This document shows positions 39,766 through 55,765 of a stretch of 64,000 nt of DNA, piece after piece. The stretch is taken from contig NZ_QTUA01000001.1 in assembly GCF_003386865.1 (NCBI RefSeq), forward strand, positions 1,984,001 through 2,048,000, in the 5' to 3' direction. Origin of the DNA: Calidifontibacter indicus (GTDB lineage Bacteria; Actinomycetota; Actinomycetes; Actinomycetales; Dermatophilaceae). Numbering within the stretch: position 1 is the first letter of the stretch; each line of letters opens with the position of its first letter. The translations under genes were made by a program, and so were the position numbers. The notes under the pieces were generated by a model, which worked only from the letters and a program-made list of their open reading frames with translations, was not told the DNA's origin and did no database searches.

Positions 39766-41022
39766 GTGAGCAACATCTTCGACGAGCTGCAGTGGCGTGG
39801 CTTGGTGGCGCAGACCACCGACGAGGCCGCGTTGCGGGAAGCGCTCGACGGGACGCTCACCATGTATGTGGGATTCGATCCCACGGCGCCCTCCCTGCAC
39901 TTCGGCAACCTGGTGCAACTCGTCGTGGCACGGAAGTTGCAGCGGGCCGGACACCACGTGATCTGCCTCGTCGGCGGGTCGACCGGGCTCATCGGTGACC
40001 CGAAGCCGGACAGCGAGCGGGTGCTGCGTAGCAAGGAGCAGGTGGCCGAGGCAGTGGCCTCGATCCAGCGTCAAGCAGAGTCCTTCCTCGACTTCGAGGG
40101 TGACAACCCGGCACGCATGGTCAACAACCTCGACTGGACCGAAGGCATCAGTGCCTTGGACTTCCTGCGCGACTACGGCAAGTACTTCCGGGTCAACTCG
40201 ATGATCAAGAAGGACGCGGTCTCCGCGCGACTCAACTCCGATGCCGGCATCAGCTACACCGAGTTCAGCTACCAGATCCTGCAGGGCCTGGATTACCTGC
40301 ACCTCTTCCGCACCTACGACTGCACGCTCCAGACCGGCGCGGTCGACCAGTGGGGCAACATCCTCGCCGGCGTCGACCTGATCCGACAGGCCGAGGGCAA
40401 ACACGTGCACGTGCTGACGACGCCGTTGCTCACCGACAGCACGGGACGCAAGTACGGCAAGTCCGAGGGCAACGCGATCTGGCTCGACCCGACGATGACC
40501 TCGCCTTACGCGTTCTTCCAGTACTTCCTGAACGTCGAGGACTCCGAGGTCATCAAGCTGCTCAAGGTGTTCAGCGATCTCGGCCCTGATGAGATCAAGG
40601 ACTACGAGGAACAGGTGGCGAACGAGCCGTTCAAGCGCGCGGCGCAGCGTGCACTCGCCGCGGCTGCGACGACCTTGGTGCACGGAGCGGTCGCGACGGT
40701 GAGTGCGCAGGCCGCCTCGGAAGCACTGTTCGGCAAGGGTGACTTGCACGCGCTGGACGCGGGAACGCTGCAGGACGCGACGGCCGAACTGCCCGGTGGC
40801 GTGGTGCCGGCCGGCACTCCGATCGTCGATGCGCTCATCACCGTTGGCATTGCCGACTCCCGCAACGCCGCGCGCCGGCTGATCGGTGACGGGGGCGTGT
40901 CGGTCAACAACGAGAAGGTCACGGACGTCGACGCGACCTTGGGCGCCGACGACTACCTGCACGGCGTCGTCGCGGTGATCAAGCGGGGACGGAAGTACCA
41001 GGCGGCCGCGCGAGCGAGCTGA
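39766..41022 (+). CDS. tyrS: Tyrosyl-tRNA synthetase
   Basis: 418-aa class I synthetase. The HIGH-type motif is in YVGFDPTAPSLHFGNL, the KMSKS-type loop is KYGKSEGNAIWLD, and tyrosine-binding residues lie in SYTEFSYQILQGLDYLHLF. A C-terminal S4 domain (NAARRLIGDGGVSVNNEKVT) completes the bacterial form. GTG 39766 follows GGGAAGGA. The upstream 59 bases show no T-box features. Confidence 0.97.
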   Translation: MSNIFDELQWRGLVAQTTDEAALREALDGTLTMYVGFDPTAPSLHFGNLVQLVVARKLQRAGHHVICLVGGSTGLIGDPKPDSERVLRSKEQVAEAVASIQRQAESFLDFEGDNPARMVNNLDWTEGISALDFLRDYGKYFRVNSMIKKDAVSARLNSDAGISYTEFSYQILQGLDYLHLFRTYDCTLQTGAVDQWGNILAGVDLIRQAEGKHVHVLTTPLLTDSTGRKYGKSEGNAIWLDPTMTSPYAFFQYFLNVEDSEVIKLLKVFSDLGPDEIKDYEEQVANEPFKRAAQRALAAAATTLVHGAVATVSAQAASEALFGKGDLHALDAGTLQDATAELPGGVVPAGTPIVDALITVGIADSRNAARRLIGDGGVSVNNEKVTDVDATLGADDYLHGVVAVIKRGRKYQAAARAS

Positions 41023-41599: not shown

Positions 41600-46572
<4,973 letters not shown>

Positions 46573-46686: not shown

Positions 46687-46804
46687 TGTTACGGCGGTCA
46701 TAGCGAAGTGGGAAACGCCCGGTTACATTCCGAACCCGGAAGCTAAGCCCTTCAGCGCCGATGGTACTGCACTCGGTAGGGTGTGGGAGAGTAGGACACC
46801 GCCG
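46687..46804 (+). rRNA. rrf: 5S ribosomal RNA
   Basis: About 118 nt: TTACGGCGGTCATAGCGAAG at the 5' end, CCGAACCCGGAAGCTAAGCC in the middle, and AGTAGGACACCGCCG closing helix I. Ends estimated from the terminal helix. Confidence 0.96.
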
Positions 46805-46815
46805 GACTTCACCTC

Positions 46816-46872
46816 AAATTGGAGGGTTGTCCCCGTGATGGTCGACAAGACCCGGGGACAACCCTCCAATTT
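46816..46872 (+). terminator. rRNA operon terminator
   Basis: 20-bp perfect stem: AAATTGGAGGGTTGTCCCCG (46816-46835) with its complement at 46853-46872 and a 17-base loop. It ends in AATTT, eleven bases after 5S. A very strong hairpin, expected for an rRNA operon. Confidence 0.88.
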
Positions 46873-46936
46873 CCATTTGACGTGGAAGAATGGGCTGTTG
46901 CGAGCCCCCGAGCAGGACAGTTCGAAGGAGATTGGT

Positions 46937-48841
46937 GTGACGGACGAGCAGCCCGACAAGGCAGACGAGCAGGGCCGTTCCGGTCGCTGGTCCCGAGCAC
47001 GCTCCGAAGGTAATGGCGACAACAGGCCGGAGCGCGGCGAATCACGTGACCGTGGTCGCGACGGCGGCCGGCGAGAGGACCGTCCGCGGCGCGATGGTGA
47101 CGACCGCGGCCGTGGCGGCTACCCGCGGCGTGACCGTGACGATCGTCCGCAGCGCTCCGGGGGTTCGTTCCCCCGTCGCTCCGACGGTGATCGGCGCGAT
47201 GGACGGCGTGACGACCGTGACGGTGACCGACGTGACGACCGTCGTGGAGGCTACGAGCGCCGTGACGATCGACGGGGCGGCTATGACCGTCGCGACGACC
47301 GACGGGACGACCGGCAGGGTGAACGCCGAGGTGGCTTCGAACGTCGCGACGACCGTGGACGCGGAGGTCGCGACGATCGTGGTGGCTACCGCGGAGCAGA
47401 CAACCGCGGTGGACGTTCGGATGGTCGGCGCGACGACCGGCGTGATGGTCGGCGCGACGACCGGCGTGATGACCGGCGCGGAGGCTATGGCGGACGGGAT
47501 GATCGCGCGGGCGGCTACCGCGGTTCCGACAACCGGAGCAACGAGCGCCGAGGCGGATACGGGGAACGCTCCGAGCGCCGTGACGACCGCGACCGCGGGT
47601 TCCGCGGGGGTGACAACCGTGGCGGCGGTTACGGACGTGGGCGTGATGACCGGCGTGACGACCGTGGCGGGCGTTGGAGCGACGACCGCCGTGGTGGCGG
47701 GCCGCGTCGCGACGACAACCGCCGTGGCGGCGACTTCGATCGAGCACGTCGGGACGACCGTGGTGACCGTGGCGGTCAGGGCCGTGGACGTTTCGACGAC
47801 CGGCGTGATGACCGGCGCTCCGACGATCGATCGGATCGTCCCGAGGGCGGACCGCGCAGCTGGGAGCGCGGGCTCGACGAGCAGGGCCGGCGTGACAAGC
47901 GCCGCGAGCCGGTGTTGCCCGAGGGCGTGACCGGCAAGGAACTCGACCGCAGCGTGTGGCAGCAGTTGCGCACCCTGTCGGCAGAGAACGCCGAAGGCGT
48001 CGCGGCCCATCTCGCCGCGGCAGCGATCCTGCTCGAAGACGACGAGGACCGCGCGCTCGAGCACGCCGAACACGCTGCGCGGCGCGCGGGCCGGGTTCCC
48101 GCCGTCCGCGAAGCTCTCGGCCTTGTGCGCTACCGCCGCGGGGAGTTCACCGATGCGCTGCGGGAGTTCAAGACCGCGCGCCGACTGTCGGGGTCTGATC
48201 ATTTGCTGCCCTACATGGTCGACTGCGAACGAGGCCTCGGCCGTTACGACCGCGCGCTCGACCTGGCTGCCTCCCCGGAGGCGAAGCGCCTTGCTCAGGA
48301 CGACGCGATCGAACTTGCGATCGTGGTCTCCGGTGTGCGTCGCGACATGGGACAGCCCGACGCTGCGCTCATCGGATTGCGGATCCCTGCCCTCGAGAAG
48401 GCCGGCCGCCAGCCGTGGGCATCGCGACTGCTGTACGCCTACGCCGAAGCGCTGCTTGCGACCGGCGACGAGTCGGCCGCCCGCGAGTACTTCGCCCGGT
48501 CGGCGAGCGCGGACGAGGACGGCCTCACCGATGCGTACGAGCGGGTCGCCGAACTCGACGGTGTCGACATGCTCGACCTGCTCGGCGACGAAGAGGACGT
48601 CGACGACCTGCTCACCCCGGAGCGTCCGGGTGGACCGGTGGATCTGGACGACGATGAACTCGACGGCCAGGTCATGGGTGACGACACTCACGAGGACGAG
48701 CCCGAAGAGTCTGACGGCGCCGAGGACGACGCGTACGAGAAGGACGACGCGTACGCGGAGCAAGCCGACGACGACGTGGACGCTGAAGAGTCCGACGACG
48801 ACGCAACCGACGAGGCTGACCGGGACGGCGACCCCAGCTGA
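46937..48841 (+). CDS. Arg/Asp/Gly-repeat protein with TPR-like domain
   Basis: 634 aa from GTG 46937, six bases after AAGGAG (46925-46930). Residues about 25-330 are almost entirely R, D, G with scattered Y, F, N and W, in repeats such as RRDDRRGGYERRDDRRGGYD, with RGG-box character and no hydrophobic core. Residues about 345-560 form a helical repeat domain (SAENAEGVAAHLAAAAILLE ... LGLVRYRRGEFTDALREFKT) of TPR type. The tail (560-634) is strongly acidic (DDDELDG, EDDAYEKDDAYAEQADDDVD). Known RGG/RD-rich regions bind RNA and drive condensate formation; a role in RNA or ribosome biology is inference from composition and position after the rRNA operon. Confidence 0.85.
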   Translation: MTDEQPDKADEQGRSGRWSRARSEGNGDNRPERGESRDRGRDGGRREDRPRRDGDDRGRGGYPRRDRDDRPQRSGGSFPRRSDGDRRDGRRDDRDGDRRDDRRGGYERRDDRRGGYDRRDDRRDDRQGERRGGFERRDDRGRGGRDDRGGYRGADNRGGRSDGRRDDRRDGRRDDRRDDRRGGYGGRDDRAGGYRGSDNRSNERRGGYGERSERRDDRDRGFRGGDNRGGGYGRGRDDRRDDRGGRWSDDRRGGGPRRDDNRRGGDFDRARRDDRGDRGGQGRGRFDDRRDDRRSDDRSDRPEGGPRSWERGLDEQGRRDKRREPVLPEGVTGKELDRSVWQQLRTLSAENAEGVAAHLAAAAILLEDDEDRALEHAEHAARRAGRVPAVREALGLVRYRRGEFTDALREFKTARRLSGSDHLLPYMVDCERGLGRYDRALDLAASPEAKRLAQDDAIELAIVVSGVRRDMGQPDAALIGLRIPALEKAGRQPWASRLLYAYAEALLATGDESAAREYFARSASADEDGLTDAYERVAELDGVDMLDLLGDEEDVDDLLTPERPGGPVDLDDDELDGQVMGDDTHEDEPEESDGAEDDAYEKDDAYAEQADDDVDAEESDDDATDEADRDGDPS

Positions 48842-48846
48842 GCCGA

Positions 48847-48905
48847 ATGCACGAAGGAGGCCCCCGACCATCCACAGGAGACGGCCGGGGGCCTCTTTCG
48901 TGCAT
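48847..48905 (+). terminator. Hairpin terminator after the repeat-protein gene
   Basis: Outer arms ATGCACGAA / TTCGTGCAT and inner arms GAGGCCCCCG / CCGGGGGCCTC pair across a loop. The right arm includes CCTCTTTCG. Starts 6 bases after the stop. Confidence 0.78.
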
Positions 48906-49010: not shown

Positions 49011-49379
49011 ATGACCACGACACCGCCGCCCGACACCCTCGTCCACTGCAACGAGGTTCATCTCATCGGAGTTGTCCGAGCAGAACCGGAGGTTCGCACA
49101 CTGCCCAGCGGCGACGAGATCGTCGCCCTTCGGGTCGCCGTCGAGCGGGCTGCGGCCGACCGGCGCAGTGCACGCAGTCCGCGCAGCGATTTGTTCGACG
49201 TCACCTGCTTCAGCGCGGCGACCCGCCGCACCGGGCGCTCCCTGGCCGACGGTGACCTCGTCGAACTTCGCGGGGCGATGCGCCGAAATGTGCGCCGCGG
49301 TCCCGGCGGGGTCACCAGCCGGATGGATCTCGAAGCCCGCACCCTCAGCCGTCGATCACCCCGCCGAAGCGCCGGGTGA
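49011..49379 (+). CDS. Single-stranded DNA-binding protein, short SSB-like
   Basis: 122 aa. NEVHLIGVVRAEPEVRTLPS followed by IVALRVAVERA and SDLFDVTCFSA is the OB-fold core of SSB. The long acidic-tipped C-terminal tail of housekeeping SSB is missing and the protein ends in basic residues (RTLSRRSPRRSAG). This is therefore a secondary SSB rather than the replication SSB. AGGAGG lies at 49001-49006. It overlaps the following gene region (GTGA), suggesting co-transcription with the HAD phosphatase. Confidence 0.85.
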   Translation: MTTTPPPDTLVHCNEVHLIGVVRAEPEVRTLPSGDEIVALRVAVERAAADRRSARSPRSDLFDVTCFSAATRRTGRSLADGDLVELRGAMRRNVRRGPGGVTSRMDLEARTLSRRSPRRSAG

Positions 49380-49390
49380 GAATGGGGGGC

Positions 49391-50401
49391 ATGGACTCCC
49401 TGCTCAGCCGGTACGACGCGTTGGTGTGCGACCTGGACGGGGTGATCTACCGCGGCCCGGAGCCGGTGCCGTATGCCATCGAGTCGGTCGAAGCCGCTGG
49501 TGGTGCCGGTGTGAAGGTTGCCTATGCCACCAACAACGCTTCCCGCCCGCCGGCCGAGGTGGCCGAGCACCTGCGCGAGCTCGGCCTGACGACCGACGAC
49601 TCGGCTGTGATCAACAGTTCGATGGCCGGAGCCGATCACTTGGCGCGACACCTCCATGAGGGCGCGACCGTTCTGGCCGTGGGTGGCGACGGGGTGCGTC
49701 TTGCGTTGTCCGACAAGGGTTTCCGGGTCGTGACGGGGTTGAAGTCCGAGCAGCCGGCGGCGGTGCTGCAGGGGTACGGCCCGAAGGTGACCGCACAAGA
49801 CCTCGCCCATGTCGCGTATGCGGTGCAGCGTGGCGCGCGGTGGGTGGCGACCAACACCGACCGCACATTGCCGACGGCCCAGGGCACCGCCCCCGGTAAC
49901 GGGGCGCTCATCGGCGCCGTCCGCGAGGCGGTCGACGTCGACCCGGAAGTGGTCGGCAAGCCCGGACCGTTGATGTACACGATGGCCGCAGCACGGCTCG
50001 GGTCGAGCGCTGCACGCACGCTGGGTATCGGCGACAGGCTCGAGACCGATGTCGCCGGCGCCCACGCCGCAGGAATGGATTGCCTCCACGTGCTCACGGG
50101 TGTGCATGGCCCCACCGATCTCATTGCGGCGCCGGCCGATCTGCGTCCTCGTTATGTCGCCGACGATCTCCGTGCGCTGCACGACCCGTACGACGAGCCG
50201 CGCCGCCGCGACGACGGGTGGCAACTGGGCGCCGCACGGGCGCGACTGGACGGTGAAGGTGGCGACGCCTGCCTCGAGGTGCGTGGAACGATCACCGGAC
50301 AGGAACGTCTCCGGCTCGTGCTGGCGGTGCTTTGGGAAGGCGTCGACACGGGCATGATCGACCGCACCGAAGCAGTGAACCTTTGGGTTACGAGCAAGTA
50401 G
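49391..50401 (+). CDS. HAD-superfamily (NagD-like) phosphatase
   Basis: 336 aa. Nucleophile motif YDALVCDLDGVIYRGPEPVP, motif II YATNNASRP, Lys motif GKPGPLMY and motif IV LGIGDRLETDVAGAHAAGMD define the NagD/p-nitrophenylphosphatase-like branch (C2 cap). About 70 extra C-terminal residues (WQLGAARARLDGEGGDACLE ...) form an added small domain. ATG 49391 has GGGGGG upstream; GTG 49376 and ATG 49382 are in-frame alternatives. A neighbour of this type is common beside tlyA/recN in Actinobacteria. Substrate unknown. Confidence 0.88.
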   Translation: MDSLLSRYDALVCDLDGVIYRGPEPVPYAIESVEAAGGAGVKVAYATNNASRPPAEVAEHLRELGLTTDDSAVINSSMAGADHLARHLHEGATVLAVGGDGVRLALSDKGFRVVTGLKSEQPAAVLQGYGPKVTAQDLAHVAYAVQRGARWVATNTDRTLPTAQGTAPGNGALIGAVREAVDVDPEVVGKPGPLMYTMAAARLGSSAARTLGIGDRLETDVAGAHAAGMDCLHVLTGVHGPTDLIAAPADLRPRYVADDLRALHDPYDEPRRRDDGWQLGAARARLDGEGGDACLEVRGTITGQERLRLVLAVLWEGVDTGMIDRTEAVNLWVTSK

Positions 50402-50436
50402 GCTCTAGCCGAACAAGTCACCTATCAGGAGCGGCC

Positions 50437-52113
50437 ATGGGTCTCGACAGCGTGCGCGCAGCACTGCAAATTCTTTCCGGCGCAGGGGAACTCACGCGCG
50501 CCAAGGCGACGGAGGCGGCGCAGACCTTGCTGGCCGTGACCGGGCTGGAAAAGCCGGCCGGTCGGGCCGGTGCGGTGGCCGGCCAGGTCTCGACCCTGGC
50601 GGACGAACTCATCGCTGCCGCGGCGGCCAACCGTCAGTTGATCAGTGAGACGGTGCAGGCCGAGATCGCCGGTCAGCTGGAGAAGGTCGGACTGTCGACG
50701 CTCGCCGAACTCGGCAACGCCCAGCAGGAGATCGACCGACTGAGCCAGGAACTGCGTGCGCTGCGCGCAAGCATCGCCGGCGGCACCGCAACCCTCGCGG
50801 GAATTGCGACCACCGGCGCCCGCGGCGCGGCCGCGCGTGCAGTGCCCGGTCGCCGCAGCAAGAGCATCCCCGCGCCCGCTGTTGAAGTTCCGGCAGCCGT
50901 GGACGAGACCGAGCCGTCCGCCGAGCCCGTTACCAAGGCTGCTTCCAAGGCCGCGTCGAAGACCCCCTCGCGCGCTGCGGTGAAGAAGGCTGCGAAGTCG
51001 GCGCCCGCCGCGCAGGCCGCGAAGTCGGCGCCCGCCGCGAAGGCTCCCGCGAAGAAGACCGTGGGCAAGACGGCCAGCAAGGCCGCTGCGACCCCGGCAG
51101 GTGCGGGCACCGCGAAGAAGTCGGTTGCGACGACCGCCGCCACGTCGACCGCTGCGAAGAAGTCGGCGGCAAAGGCGTCCGTTGCTCAGCCTGCCAAAAA
51201 GACTGCGACCAAGAAGACTGCGACCAAGAAGACTGCGACCAAGAAGACTGCGACCAAGAAGGCTGCGACCAAGAAGGCTGCGGCGAAGTCGACCGGCACG
51301 CAGCAGGCGAAGACCGCTGCTGCCAAGAAGTCGGCCACCAACGCCGCTGCCACGCCTGCGAAGTCGGCGGCCAAGACTGCGAGCCCCACCACGAAGGCGA
51401 CCGGCACGAAGGCAACCCCGGCGAAGACCGTGGCTGCGAAGAGCACCGCGACGAAGGCGGCACCGGCGACGAAGGCTGCGACGAAGAGCTCGGCGGCCAA
51501 GACGACCGGCACCGCGAAGTCTGCGACGACGAAGGCGTCGCCGGCTCCGGCGAAGTCGACCACCAAGAAGGCTGCACCCGCCAAGAAGGCTGCACCCGCC
51601 AAGAAGACGATGCCTGCCAAGGCGGCGACGGCGTCCTCGGGCAGCACCACCGCAACGTCGGCTAAGAAGGCAGCGACCGACACCGCCCCGAAGCCGCAGA
51701 CGACCAAGGCCACCGAGGTCGAGACCGCACCGACGAGCACTGCGTCTGCGAGCACCGCACAGGCAAGCACCGCCACGTCGACGAACTCGGCCCCCGAGGT
51801 GCCGACCGCACCCGCCACGCCGTCGTCGGTCGCGACGCCGTCGACGGCCACCGTCGCGGCGGACTCGACGTCCACCACGTCGGCAGCCGACCCGGCCGCG
51901 GCGGACGCCTCGAAGGCTGCGGCCACCGAGCCCGCGAAGGACGCTGCGTCGACCTCCGACAAGCCGTCCGCCTCGAGCACCGGCGCTCCGGCTGCCGACA
52001 CGACGACCGCGCCGTCGGCACAGGCCCCCGCCGCCGAGACCGGCGCGCCGGAGTCTGCGGAGGCGAAGGACGAACCGGCGAACAACGAGGCGGCGCCGTC
52101 CACGAATGTCTGA
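50437..52113 (+). CDS. Lys/Ala-rich histone-like protein
   Basis: 558 aa. Residues 1-115 form a helical, coiled-coil-prone domain (LDSVRAALQILSGAGELTRA ... NAQQEIDRLSQELRALRA). Residues about 165-400 are KxA/AAKK/TKKxA repeats like the tails of mycobacterial HupB or PhaF-type proteins. The final 150 are Ala/Thr/Ser/Pro-rich and acidic. Such tails bind DNA or polyanions. The whole C-terminal 440 residues are expected to be disordered. ATG 50437 with AGGAG at 50427-50431. It heads a chain of overlapping genes with tlyA, nadK and recN. Confidence 0.82.
   Translation: MGLDSVRAALQILSGAGELTRAKATEAAQTLLAVTGLEKPAGRAGAVAGQVSTLADELIAAAAANRQLISETVQAEIAGQLEKVGLSTLAELGNAQQEIDRLSQELRALRASIAGGTATLAGIATTGARGAAARAVPGRRSKSIPAPAVEVPAAVDETEPSAEPVTKAASKAASKTPSRAAVKKAAKSAPAAQAAKSAPAAKAPAKKTVGKTASKAAATPAGAGTAKKSVATTAATSTAAKKSAAKASVAQPAKKTATKKTATKKTATKKTATKKAATKKAAAKSTGTQQAKTAAAKKSATNAAATPAKSAAKTASPTTKATGTKATPAKTVAAKSTATKAAPATKAATKSSAAKTTGTAKSATTKASPAPAKSTTKKAAPAKKAAPAKKTMPAKAATASSGSTTATSAKKAATDTAPKPQTTKATEVETAPTSTASASTAQASTATSTNSAPEVPTAPATPSSVATPSTATVAADSTSTTSAADPAAADASKAAATEPAKDAASTSDKPSASSTGAPAADTTTAPSAQAPAAETGAPESAEAKDEPANNEAAPSTNV
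51199..51273 (+). repeat. 15-bp tandem repeats inside the Lys/Ala-rich gene
   Basis: Five successive copies of AAGACTGCGACCAAG (the fifth with GGCTGCG), encoding KTATK. Near-identity at DNA level, with little codon drift, suggests recent expansion by slippage and likely length variation between strains. Confidence 0.85.
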
Positions 52114-52324
52114 GTCGAACGTTCCGAAGCCCGGCCCGGTCGCGCCCGCCCATGAGCGCGGCGCGGCCGAGATCGACGACGCGATGAGCCGCGTGCGGGC
52201 GTTGCCGAGCACGTCGGCCGACGCGGAGGGACAGCTGCCCGAGATCGATCTCGACGAACAGATCGAAACGCTCGGCGCCGCCCACGACACCCTGCGACGG
52301 CAGCTGTCCAGCATCGATCGATGA
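52106..52324 (+). CDS. Small conserved-looking protein upstream of tlyA
   Basis: 72 aa starting MSESNVPKPGPVAPAHERGA, overlapping the previous gene by 8 bases and the tlyA start by 4 (ATGA). Proline-rich front, then IDDAMSRVRALPSTSADAE and an acidic amphipathic helix (LPEIDLDEQIETLGAAHDTL). No family recognised. Tight coupling on both sides supports that it is translated. Confidence 0.65.
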   Translation: MSESNVPKPGPVAPAHERGAAEIDDAMSRVRALPSTSADAEGQLPEIDLDEQIETLGAAHDTLRRQLSSIDR

Positions 52325-53148
52325 CGGCCGGTGAGCCTGCGATGACCGGTTCGGAAATGGTCGACCAGGCGCTGGTCACTCGAGGATTGGCGAGGTCGCG
52401 CGCGGTGGCGCGCGACCTCGTCCTCGCCGGCCGGGTGCGGTCTGGTGCCGACACGATCGACAAGCCGTCGGTCAAGGTCACCCCCGACACCGAACTCGAG
52501 GTGGTCGGCGAGGTCGACCCGTGGGTCGGCCGGGCGGCGCACAAGCTGCTCGGTGCGCTGGCCGCGTTCGGGGAGGTCGACCCGGCGGGGCTGCGGGCGA
52601 TCGACGTCGGTGCATCGACCGGCGGTTTCACCCAGGTGTTGCTGAGCCGCGGCGCCGCGGTCGTCGAGGCCGTCGACGTCGGGCACGGGCAACTGGCCCC
52701 TGCAGTGCGGGACGACGACCGCGTGCGTGACCACTCGGGAACCACCGTGCGCGGCATCGATCCGGAGACGATCGGTGGACCCGCCGACCTCGTCGTCACC
52801 GACCTCAGCTTCATCTCGCTCACGCTGGTCGCCGCCGATCTCGCGCGGCTGCTCACGGACGACGGGCACCTGGTCGCGCTGGTGAAACCACAGTTCGAGG
52901 TGGGTCGCGAGCGGCTCGGTCACGGTGGTGTGGTGCGCTCACCGCGCGAGCGTGCGCGCGCCGTCCGTGCAGTGCTGGAAGCTATCGACGCCGCAGGGCT
53001 GACCGTGCACGGTCTTGATCGCAGTGTGGTTGCGGGCACCACCGGCAACCAGGAGTACCTGCTGTGGGCGCGCAAGCGCCCGGCAGGCAAGATGGACGAC
53101 GCCGCGATCGCGGCCTTCGTGACGACGATCGAGCAGGAGGACGGATGA
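52321..53148 (+). CDS. tlyA: TlyA-family rRNA 2'-O-ribose methyltransferase
   Basis: 275 aa. N-terminal S4 domain MVDQALVTRGLARSRAVARD, then a Rossmann methyltransferase: IDVGASTGGFTQVLLSRGAA (SAM loop) and VVTDLSFISLTLV, with the catalytic Lys in VALVKPQFEVGRE. TlyA methylates cytidine 2'-OH groups in 16S/23S rRNA and thereby sets capreomycin sensitivity in mycobacteria. Start and stop overlap neighbours. Confidence 0.94.
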   Translation: MTAGEPAMTGSEMVDQALVTRGLARSRAVARDLVLAGRVRSGADTIDKPSVKVTPDTELEVVGEVDPWVGRAAHKLLGALAAFGEVDPAGLRAIDVGASTGGFTQVLLSRGAAVVEAVDVGHGQLAPAVRDDDRVRDHSGTTVRGIDPETIGGPADLVVTDLSFISLTLVAADLARLLTDDGHLVALVKPQFEVGRERLGHGGVVRSPRERARAVRAVLEAIDAAGLTVHGLDRSVVAGTTGNQEYLLWARKRPAGKMDDAAIAAFVTTIEQEDG

Positions 53149-54044
53149 CCCGGCGCGTGCTGCTCATCGGCCACCCCGGGCGGGAGCAGGCCCGACAGGC
53201 CGCGTGCGAACTCGTCTCCGAACTGGCCGCGCAGCAGATCGAGGTCACCGGCGACGAGGAGGAACTGCGCGCTTTCGGCGTGCTCGACAACCCGAACGTC
53301 GTGCCCCAGACCGGCACGCCCGGTGAAGGATGCGAGCTGGCCGTGGTGCTCGGCGGCGACGGCACGATCCTGCGCGCCGCCGAGACGGTGCGCGACGCGT
53401 GCACGCCGCTGCTCGGCATCAACCTCGGTCACGTCGGCTTTCTCGCCGAGGCCGAGCGCGACAACGTGCGCGAGGCGGCCCAGCGCATCGTCGACCGCAG
53501 TTGGACCGTCGAGGAGCGCGAGACGCTCGAGATCGACGTCAGCGTCGACGACGAAATCGTCTGGAACAGCTGGGCGCTCAACGAGGCGTCGGTCGAGAAG
53601 GCGTCCCGGGAACGGATGATCGAACTCGTCGTCGAGATCGACGGCCGACCGTTGTCGACCTGGGGTTGCGACGGAGTCGTGATCAGCACCCCGACCGGTT
53701 CGACCGCGTACGCGTTCTCCGCCGGGGGACCGGTCGTCTGGCCGGGTGTCCAGGCCTTCCTGGTATGTCCGATCTCGGCGCACGCATTGTTCGCGCGTCC
53801 GCTGGTGCTCAGCCACGACGTGCGGGTCGCCATCGAACTGTCCCCGAGCGGACAGGGCCGGGCGGTCGTGTGGTGCGACGGACGCCGCAGCTTCGACCTG
53901 CCCGAAGGCGCACGAATCGCCGTGCGGCGTAGCGAACTTCCCGTGCGTCTCGCCCGCCTCGCCCAGTCACCGTTCACCGACCGCCTGGTCGCGAAGTTCG
54001 ACCTGTCGGTGACCGGTTGGCGCGGCGCCCGCGAGGTGCGTTGA
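53145..54044 (+). CDS. nadK: NAD kinase
   Basis: 299 aa. Phosphorylates NAD to NADP. ELAVVLGGDGTILRAAETV carries the GGDG motif. NLGHVGFLAEAER and the C-terminal substrate loop GVVISTPTGSTAYAFSAGGP are conserved. Placed between tlyA and recN as in mycobacteria. Confidence 0.97.
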   Translation: MTRRVLLIGHPGREQARQAACELVSELAAQQIEVTGDEEELRAFGVLDNPNVVPQTGTPGEGCELAVVLGGDGTILRAAETVRDACTPLLGINLGHVGFLAEAERDNVREAAQRIVDRSWTVEERETLEIDVSVDDEIVWNSWALNEASVEKASRERMIELVVEIDGRPLSTWGCDGVVISTPTGSTAYAFSAGGPVVWPGVQAFLVCPISAHALFARPLVLSHDVRVAIELSPSGQGRAVVWCDGRRSFDLPEGARIAVRRSELPVRLARLAQSPFTDRLVAKFDLSVTGWRGAREVR

Positions 54045-55765
54045 TGCTGCGTGAGATCCGCATCCGGGATCTGGGCGTCATCGACGACGCGACCCTGCCG
54101 TTCGCGCCCGGACTCAACGTGCTGACCGGCGAGACCGGTGCCGGCAAGACGATGGTCGTGCAGGGGCTCGGACTCCTGCTCGGCGGACGCGCGAGCGCGG
54201 GACTCGTGCGTGATGGCGCGGCATCGTGCGTCGTCGAAGGTGTACTCGACCTGCCGGCCGACCATCCGGCGGTGGTGCGCGCCGACGAAGCCGGTGGCGA
54301 ACTCGACGAGGGTGAACTGCTGCTGGCCCGGTCGGTGGCCGAGGGCGGACGTTCCCGAGCCTGGGTCGGCGGCCGCAACGCCCCGGTGGGGGTGCTCGGC
54401 GAGATCGGTGAACGGATCGTCGCCGTGCACGGCCAGGCCGACCAGTGGCGACTGCAACGCCCCGATCAGCACCGCGAGGTGCTCGACGACTTCGGCGGCA
54501 AAGCCGTCCGCACCTGCCTGGAGCGCTACACCGCAGTGCACCGCGAACGACTCGCGGTGCACAAGGAACTGCAGGAGTTGCGCACCCACGCCCGCGAACG
54601 AGCGATGCGGCTCGATCAGTTGACGGCGTCGCTGGAGGAGATCGAGGCGGTCGACCCGCAACCCGGCGAAGACGTCGCGCTCGCCGAGGAGTCGATGCGA
54701 CTGGAGCATCTCGATGCGCTGTTCGCCGCGGCGGCCGGTGCACACGGCGCGATCAGCGGCACCGACGACATCGATGACCGCAGTGCACTCACCCAACTCG
54801 GCACGGCGTCGGCCGCGCTGGCCCGGGCGACCGACCACGACCCGGCACTCGGCGCGTTGCACACCCGCCTGAGCGAACTCAGTGTGCTGCTCACCGACCT
54901 CGCCGCCGATCTCCAGGGCTACCTGCAGAACCTCGATGCCGATCCGGCGCGGGTGGAACAGGTGCAGGAACGTCGCGCCGCGATCGGCACCTTGCTCCGC
55001 AAGTACGGCAGCACGGTCGAGGAGGTGCTCGCCTGGTCGCAGCAGGCGGCCGCGGAGAGCACCGACCTGGCCGGATCCGACGACCGAATCGCCGCGCTGG
55101 CCGCCGACGCCGAACGCCTCGACGGCGAGATCGCCTCTGCCGCAACGGCACTCACCAACGCGCGCACCAAGGCCGCCGCTCGCCTCGGCAAGGAGGTCAC
55201 CGCCGAACTGGCACACCTCGCGATGGGTTCGGCGAAGGTCGAGGTCGTGGTCGAGCCACGGCAGGGTGACTACGGCGCCACCGGTGTCGACGACGTCGAG
55301 ATCCGTCTGGCCGCCAACAAGGGCGGCAAGGCACGCAGCGTCACCAAGGCGGCGTCCGGTGGTGAGTTGTCGCGGGTGATGCTCGCCATCGAGGTCGTCA
55401 CCGCCGCCGGCGGGGTGCCGACGTTCGTCTTCGACGAGGTCGACGCGGGTGTCGGTGGATCGGCGGCACTCGACATCGGTGCCCGGCTGAAGGCCTTGGC
55501 AGCACACGCGCAGGTGCTCGTCGTCACCCACCTCGGCCAGGTCGCGGCGTACGCCGACCGGCACCTGGTGGTGCGCAAGCAGCACGACGGCCACATCACC
55601 GTCAGCGATGTCGCGGTCGTCGAAGGCGACGAACGCCGTCGTGAACTGGCCCGGATGCTCGGCGGCGTCAGCGACAGCGACGCCGCGCTGGCACACGTCG
55701 ACGAACTGCTCGAGCAGGTCGCCTCCGCGGCTTCGGCGCCGCGTGCTGGCAGCATGGACGCGTGA
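54044..55765 (+). CDS. recN: DNA repair protein RecN
   Basis: 573-aa SMC-like ATPase acting in double-strand break repair. Walker A NVLTGETGAGKTMVVQGL at the N-terminus. A central coiled coil runs from about 150 to 390. The C-terminal signature ASGGELSRVMLAIEVV, Walker B TFVFDEVDAGVGG and VVTHLGQVAAYADRHLVV complete the head. Start overlaps the nadK stop by one base. Confidence 0.97.
   Translation: MLREIRIRDLGVIDDATLPFAPGLNVLTGETGAGKTMVVQGLGLLLGGRASAGLVRDGAASCVVEGVLDLPADHPAVVRADEAGGELDEGELLLARSVAEGGRSRAWVGGRNAPVGVLGEIGERIVAVHGQADQWRLQRPDQHREVLDDFGGKAVRTCLERYTAVHRERLAVHKELQELRTHARERAMRLDQLTASLEEIEAVDPQPGEDVALAEESMRLEHLDALFAAAAGAHGAISGTDDIDDRSALTQLGTASAALARATDHDPALGALHTRLSELSVLLTDLAADLQGYLQNLDADPARVEQVQERRAAIGTLLRKYGSTVEEVLAWSQQAAAESTDLAGSDDRIAALAADAERLDGEIASAATALTNARTKAAARLGKEVTAELAHLAMGSAKVEVVVEPRQGDYGATGVDDVEIRLAANKGGKARSVTKAASGGELSRVMLAIEVVTAAGGVPTFVFDEVDAGVGGSAALDIGARLKALAAHAQVLVVTHLGQVAAYADRHLVVRKQHDGHITVSDVAVVEGDERRRELARMLGGVSDSDAALAHVDELLEQVASAASAPRAGSMDA

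Follow-up and report, generated by a model that had tools for sequence, protein, structure and literature searches.

The window (the whole stretch of 64,000 nucleotides of the Calidifontibacter indicus genome that was analysed) carries an rRNA operon (rrn), and the next gene after it according to Rfam mapping is a 634-codon open reading frame on the same strand (46937-48841, +), which has a GTG start with AAGGAG upstream. The end of the 5S rRNA gene and the start of this frame are 129 bp apart, in line with the sequence-only reading, which had placed the protein directly behind the operon. The genes and features are listed here by position.

39766-41022, + strand: tyrS, upstream of rrn, conserved context (Pfam PF00579, 257 bits)
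41600-43122, + strand: 16S rRNA gene of the rrn operon (Rfam RF00177, 1580.7 bits)
43459-46570, + strand: 23S rRNA gene (Rfam RF02541, 2801.7 bits)
46690-46807, + strand: 5S rRNA gene, last of the rrn operon (Rfam RF00001, 89 bits)
46818-46870, + strand: strong hairpin in the 5S-gene spacer, resembling a terminator or processing site, no T run (RNA fold z)
46925-46930, + strand: ribosome-binding site AAGGAG (read off the sequence)
46937-48841, + strand: protein gene, 634 aa, with Arg-rich N-terminus, TPR domain and acidic tail (translation; homologues)
46937-47914, + strand: Arg/Asp/Gly-rich low-complexity region, residues 1-326 (composition, genome background)
47915-48598, + strand: TPR domain, residues 327-554 (AlphaFold2, Foldseek, VIA)
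48599-48841, + strand: acidic C-terminal tail, Asp+Glu 47% (composition)
49376-50401, + strand: HAD-IIA phosphatase gene, conserved context (TIGR01460, 125.2 bits vs cut-off 100.15)
52321-53148, + strand: tlyA-like rRNA 2'-O-methyltransferase gene, conserved context (TIGR00478 177 bits, below cut-off 185.8; Pfam FtsJ and S4 above cut-off)
53145-54044, + strand: NAD kinase gene, conserved context (Pfam PF20143 120.6 bits; PF01513 69.5 bits)
54044-55765, + strand: recN-like gene, conserved context, start approximate (Pfam PF02463 RecF/RecN/SMC, 52 bits)

The host genome (3.60 Mb) has two 23S genes. No such protein gene lies behind its second rrn; there, Pfam finds phosphatidylglycerol lysyltransferase and lysyl-tRNA-synthetase domains in the large ORF that comes next (locus L154 9926-13351). 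Between the TPR gene and the HAD gene the window encodes a small SSB/OB-fold-like protein (49011-49379; Pfam SSB, E 5.8e-11), which has a tblastn relative somewhere in 24 of the 97 class flank loci, and further downstream a long Ala/Lys-rich protein with a weak phasin match (50428-52113; E 0.0026; tblastn relative in 16 of the 97). On the opposite strand the TPR gene is overlapped by an open frame of 609 aa (47042-48871, - strand), probably a by-product of codon composition.

Residues 1-326 of the protein contain 32.5% Arg, 21.8% Asp and 20.9% Gly (75% in total) and 16 spaced Tyr, Phe or Trp residues, with a net charge of +21; the sequence-only reading had rightly described about 300 residues of nearly pure Arg, Asp and Gly with spaced aromatics. 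It had also spoken of RGG/RD repeats: repeats of the RD type are indeed abundant (DDR 21, RRD 19), but RGG is outnumbered, with 15 occurrences. A tri-RGG box requires three RGG, neighbouring ones no more than 4 residues apart. In this protein the longest run comprises 2 of the 15 RGG, which are spaced too widely to form a strict box, and a canonical RGG-box identity was ruled out by this spacing. Strict runs of at least three are rare in the orthologues as well (4/97). From the composition we infer that the N-terminal region is disordered.

The background in the host was scanned over 864 kb of the C. indicus genome (about a quarter of it, window included), taking six-frame open stretches of at least 100 aa and asking for a 100-aa window with at least 20% Arg and at most 5% hydrophobics. 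This strict filter was passed by 3 of 4533 open stretches, with 237 passing windows in the TPR gene versus 38 and 2 in the other two stretches; the Arg-rich region is not a chance occurrence in its host genome. Two other backgrounds were dropped: an earlier count by ORF length and GC bias, whose top rows resembled out-of-frame readings, and a wide six-frame scan with too many rows of that kind.

Residues 327-574 were modelled with AlphaFold2 from 17 sequences, giving an all-helical structure (mean pLDDT 88.1, pTM 0.80) whose final 27 residues have pLDDT <50. Foldseek returned a consensus TPR protein as best match (E 1.2e-4), a PDB sequence search yielded a single weak match, again to a consensus TPR protein, and VIA aligned 179 residues with the Thermus TPR protein 2pl2_A at Z 17.1 and 2.5 Å rmsd, other superhelices scoring equally well. 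The middle 228 residues are thus predicted with confidence to form a helical-repeat superhelix that matches solved TPR proteins, as the sequence-only reading had supposed when it named a TPR-like domain, although the Pfam matches in the C-terminal half stay below cut-off (TPR_12 22.6, cut-off 30.1; TPR_19 21.4, cut-off 25). A specific structural relative was sought and rejected: the Foldseek and VIA matches are generic with similar scores, and because of this we draw no function from the domain. Neither a nuclease domain nor the core domains of Rho were matched in the protein by Pfam or NCBIfam. The C-terminal tail, likewise recognised from the letters as acidic, has 47% Asp+Glu over 81 positions (stop included); Asp+Glu reach at least 25% in 46 of the 52 class orthologue tails of at least 15 aa, and the other 24 of 76 orthologues have a shorter tail or none. 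In one genome of the same genus, the last part of the TPR domain is matched again, incompletely, about 3 kb past the full gene (G001:C1:2597704-2597838), as if the gene were partly duplicated.

Using the TPR part as query, homologues were found in 54 of 58 relatives and in 280 of 295 genomes sampled from the class, the misses possibly including genes too diverged for a single query. Eight of the 15 class misses fall in one small-genome family (f38), where the gene is present in 24 of 32 genomes. A profile matched 122 of 296 phylum genomes, 35 from the same class and 87 from other classes, 4 of these 87 at E only 1e-4 to 1e-3, where a fortuitous resemblance between TPRs may be the cause. Of the 17 loci with names, ten are from Streptomyces, and the best matches come from Luteipulveratus, Dermacoccus, Leekyejoonella and Segeticoccus. 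By these searches the gene belongs to an uncharacterised protein family found across the phylum, and in most cases it is the first protein-coding gene after rrn.

The N-terminus has at least 40 aa in 93 of 97 loci, with a range of 44 to 767 aa; four loci have less, two of them at least partly owing to a contig end. Arg makes up at least 15.7% of all 76 N-termini of this length in the 79 class loci (median 22.7%), and a looser filter (Arg at least 18%, hydrophobics at most 6%) finds a passing stretch in 62 of 97 genes versus 9 stretches elsewhere in 1.47 Mb of flanks. The composition had been called uncommon in bacteria before any comparison was made; this holds for the host genome (3/4533 stretches), but among the class orthologues examined an Arg-rich N-terminus is the rule. 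In 93 proteins Arg:Lys is 5987:233 in the N-termini versus 2093:477 in the folded parts. Since this skew is so strong and tri-RGG runs occur in just 4/97, the conserved trait is Arg over Lys, not RGG; the shares of Gly, Asp, Ser and Pro differ by family. Among the loci of other classes many N-termini looked Arg-rich by eye, and those of L140, L143 and L146 are short. The family with the mycobacterial-type gene order (f22) has N-termini of 44-93 residues in 6 of 7 loci and of 20 in the seventh, because of which a long, potentially phase-separating region is, on these predicted proteins, not universal in the family.

The homologues of family f22 match at 42-49% identity and lead to a known gene. 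We take Rv1692 to be a HAD phosphatase and tyrS to precede lprJ in mycobacteria. A passage of PMC3072309 gives the order lprJ, Rv1691, Rv1692, Rv1693, tlyA, ppnK, recN, and one of PMC10218544 places the mycobacterial rrnB downstream of tyrS. The order TPR gene, HAD phosphatase, third gene, tlyA, nadK, recN, downstream of tyrS, was found in the window and in the f22 loci and agrees with that of PMC3072309; by gene order, domain and annotation, the gene would be the orthologue of Rv1691/MSMEG_3754. The two share the TPR domain and the gene order, with rrn after tyrS as in the f22 loci, and differ in the N-terminus, which has 20-93 aa in f22 and 326 in C. indicus. According to a part of PMC7092591, MSMEG_3754 is one of 275 proteins that co-purified with RNA polymerase beta in M. 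smegmatis; the paper also states that FLAG-tagged MSMEG_3754 recovered no DNA, and that a positive control and 3 of 5 tested proteins did. MSMEG_3754 also appears in a ClpC1 interactome table (PMC10433963, in extract), and Rv1691 is named in a table column beside another antigen (PMC11754781, in extract).

Placement was scored in those 65 of the 79 class loci that reach at least 6.5 kb upstream, one per genome (14 with less were left out, as were the 17 named loci, most of which end near the operon, and the second copy L109). In this non-random set, mostly picked for large or single contigs and with some rRNA genes appearing partial where the stretch reads N, a same-strand rRNA operon lies at most 1.5 kb upstream in 56 loci, at 1.5-4.9 kb in 6, and is absent in 3. 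The median gap from the rRNA gene to the predicted start is about 105 bp, an approximate value, as orthologue starts were set by the ribosome-binding-site rule of this analysis. At least one rrn-adjacent case was seen in 17 of 20 families. With two operons in 3.6 Mb, about 0.04% of genes are expected by chance to start at most 1.5 kb behind rrn on the same strand. Among 20 loci of other classes, picked from the 87 matched genomes and mostly on large or single contigs, a same-strand rRNA gene lies upstream in 17, being 23S or 5S in 16; in L146 the sole rRNA gene found is a 16S some 2 kb upstream, and in L149 it is a partial 5S where the contig ends. The random placement in relatives that the sequence-only reading had named as counting against it was thus not found, and the synteny that it had proposed to check is conserved. 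To our knowledge it is unusual for a protein gene mostly to stay behind an rRNA operon across a bacterial phylum, and a literature search of open-licence papers returned no report of a conserved rrn-TPR order.

The gene also occurs without rrn, in six loci that contain no masked bases (L035, L048, L050, L130, L132, L138). Because rrn-less loci keep the gene and 8 of the 32 f38 genomes are missing it, the gene is, in the genomes searched, neither strictly tied to rrn nor universal.

Next, the space between 5S and the gene was analysed. In the window, 46800-46940 folds with z = -5.83, and a consensus scan of this space showed neither a terminator nor a sigma-70 promoter. In 60 of 70 loci the best hairpin between 5S and gene beats all 10 shuffles (median -33.8 vs -21.2 kcal/mol); a cut-off of a hairpin below -15 kcal/mol, passed by 69/70 loci, was discarded because 554 of 700 shuffled stretches pass too. 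A T-rich tail (at least 4 T in the next 8 bases) follows the hairpin in 30/70 loci. The start codon lies at most 45 nt past the best hairpin in 20/70, a set in which the best hairpin is not the 5S-adjacent one in L053 and L066 and is weak in L111. As 45 nt leave little room for a separate promoter, the arrangement suggests read-through in these loci. A -10-like GAGAAT box is found in 10 of 60 upstream regions versus 0.3 in base shuffles; most of these regions are from Streptomyces or f34, probably its family, two are from f35 and one is from f9. Since nine of the ten boxes lie 35-41 nt before the start, a promoter of the gene's own is likely at these loci, and read-through and own promoter may both be true, in different clades. 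Because a hairpin usually stands between 5S and the gene, we only infer that the gene is co-transcribed with rrn. Traffic across the region has a precedent in mycobacteria, where, according to a title cited in PMC10218544, transcripts from tyrS supply some of the precursor rRNA.

With the ORF and its three-part build, the conserved Arg-rich N-terminus, the modelled TPR fold and the conserved order of rrn and gene established, we turn to the role of the protein. We favour, with a probability of about 0.42, the reading that it acts as an RNA-binding scaffold: cells would make it in step with rRNA synthesis, and it would help with the transcription or processing of rRNA or with assembly. Part of the gene's transcription would come from leakage past the terminator-like rrn hairpin, and the amount of protein would thereby follow rRNA synthesis. 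The Arg-rich region would make many weak contacts with RNA, most likely nascent pre-rRNA, and the TPR domain would hold a protein partner from the transcription, rRNA-processing or ribosome-assembly machinery. Such a scaffold could gather these factors at the rRNA being made, possibly in a small condensate where the Arg-rich region is long. The conserved position at rrn suggests, rather than proves, a job in rRNA making. A link to RNA is plausible because of the conserved preference for Arg over Lys, the precedent of RNA binding by Rho, and the recovery of MSMEG_3754 with RNA polymerase. The ribosome-linked condensate or RNA-chaperone role suggested by the sequence-only reading is supported in part, with condensation, chaperoning and ribosome association as putative functions. 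Against this scaffold reading we count the lack of DNA recovery with FLAG-tagged MSMEG_3754, its listing among ClpC1 interactors, the loci that keep the gene without rrn, the f38 genomes that lack it, the second rrn of C. indicus without the gene and the short N-terminus of the mycobacterial type; the conserved hairpin and the GAGAAT boxes resembling a promoter of the gene's own count against coupling by read-through.

Eukaryotic RGG/RG-box and RD-repeat proteins such as those with nucleolar GAR domains offer a likeness in Arg/Gly/Asp low complexity, spaced aromatics and Arg far above Lys, but the TPR protein lacks strict tri-RGG spacing. Actinobacterial Rho is closer: its N-terminal subdomain of 150-200 residues is rich in Arg, Asp, Asn and Gly, poor in hydrophobics and binds RNA alone, as described in a section of PMC4167861. 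In C. indicus Rho, encoded elsewhere in the genome (locus L196), Arg, Gly, Asn and Gln are abundant in a long N-terminal region. Rho and the TPR protein thus have in common an Arg-rich, hydrophobic-poor region, which in Rho is joined to the Rho core and not to a TPR domain and in C. indicus Rho is richer in Asn/Gln. RNase E condensates (BR-bodies) are a bacterial precedent for an RNA-related condensate-forming protein (PMC10412687, in extract); the TPR protein differs in having no nuclease domain match, a TPR domain and an rrn-linked gene. In E. coli, RNA polymerase clusters on rrn operons, and a passage of PMC10450203 notes that their condensate nature is debated. A bolder form of the scaffold reading, which we consider quite improbable, has a nucleolus-like scaffold gene attached to rrn since before the classes of the phylum diverged: the protein would be made in proportion to rRNA transcription, its Arg-rich region would condense on nascent rRNA, and its TPR domain would recruit RNA polymerase and maturation factors. 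If true, the rrn operon would encode the organiser of its own factory.

Of the alternatives, the one that survives best, unlikely as we judge it, is a general RNA-binding scaffold that works in the decay of mRNA, the termination of transcription or RNA polymerase function generally, not on rRNA in particular; its gene would gain from the place behind rrn no more than high or growth-linked expression. The presence of MSMEG_3754 among the 275 proteins found with RNA polymerase beta (PMC7092591, in extract) speaks for it, as does Rho being the nearest precedent in composition, both in PMC4167861 and in C. indicus itself. By itself, however, it leaves unexplained why the gene mostly keeps to rrn after tyrS or HAD has moved: 12 of 13 informative loci without a HAD gene within 3.5 kb downstream are still rrn-adjacent, as are 16 of 21 loci without tyrS found in the fetched upstream part, and of two informative loci that lost both, one is rrn-adjacent and one is not.

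We rank next, as scarcely less probable, a purely historical linkage, in which the ancestral order tyrS-rrn-TPR-HAD-tlyA-nadK-recN was never broken and the protein's job is unrelated to rRNA, for example that of a client or adaptor of ClpC1. Many families conserve the neighbourhood as a whole (among the 56 adjacent loci, tyrS is found in 40 and HAD in 44) and some clades keep the gene without rrn. MSMEG_3754 is among the ClpC1 interactors in the table from PMC10433963, and its role could lie elsewhere. Some inertia is certain because the wider order tyrS-rrn-gene-HAD-tlyA-nadK-recN is, as far as the compared genomes go, old. Yet many families, and classes beyond this one, show the order, frequently even at loci that one neighbour has left. 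Three genomes of a single genus carry the gene twice, duplicated together with rrn, each copy lying behind its own operon. The duplicated block (6.7-6.9 kb, 99.1-99.5% identical) starts within about 200 nt of tyrS, includes rrn and stops within about 25 nt of where the gene match ends; the three cases may share one event, and a fourth two-copy genome (G245) is outside this comparison.

Very improbable, finally, is that GC-rich DNA repeats expanding in a tolerant N-terminus produced the Arg-rich region as a neutral side effect: the region is repetitive, varies widely in length (44 to 767 aa) and has a third-position GC of 0.66 vs 0.83 in the folded part, but Arg content is independent of GC (r 0.04 over 76 loci, N excluded) and still 18-23% in four f38 loci where the DNA downstream of the gene has 46-54% GC; a GC artefact was rejected on this ground. 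Lys is avoided, and the looser filter favours these genes (62/97) over their flanks.

The conserved place behind rrn directs attention to a factor, as yet unstudied, with a tie to rRNA synthesis in a phylum that includes antibiotic producers and mycobacteria. If the link to rrn is functional, the gene offers a concrete case for asking whether bacteria have a dedicated nucleolus-like organiser, and, with Rho as the first example, it would show a second time that this phylum joins low-complexity, Arg-rich stretches to its RNA machinery.

Two loci showed peculiarities in the rRNA genes themselves. L033 (1-9607) contains two tandem rrn operons, the first cut by the end of the locus, with the TPR gene behind the second. 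In L142 (3553-8675), from another class, the 23S aligns in four pieces with about 1160, 300 and 620 bases between them, a pattern that introns or intervening sequences would give.
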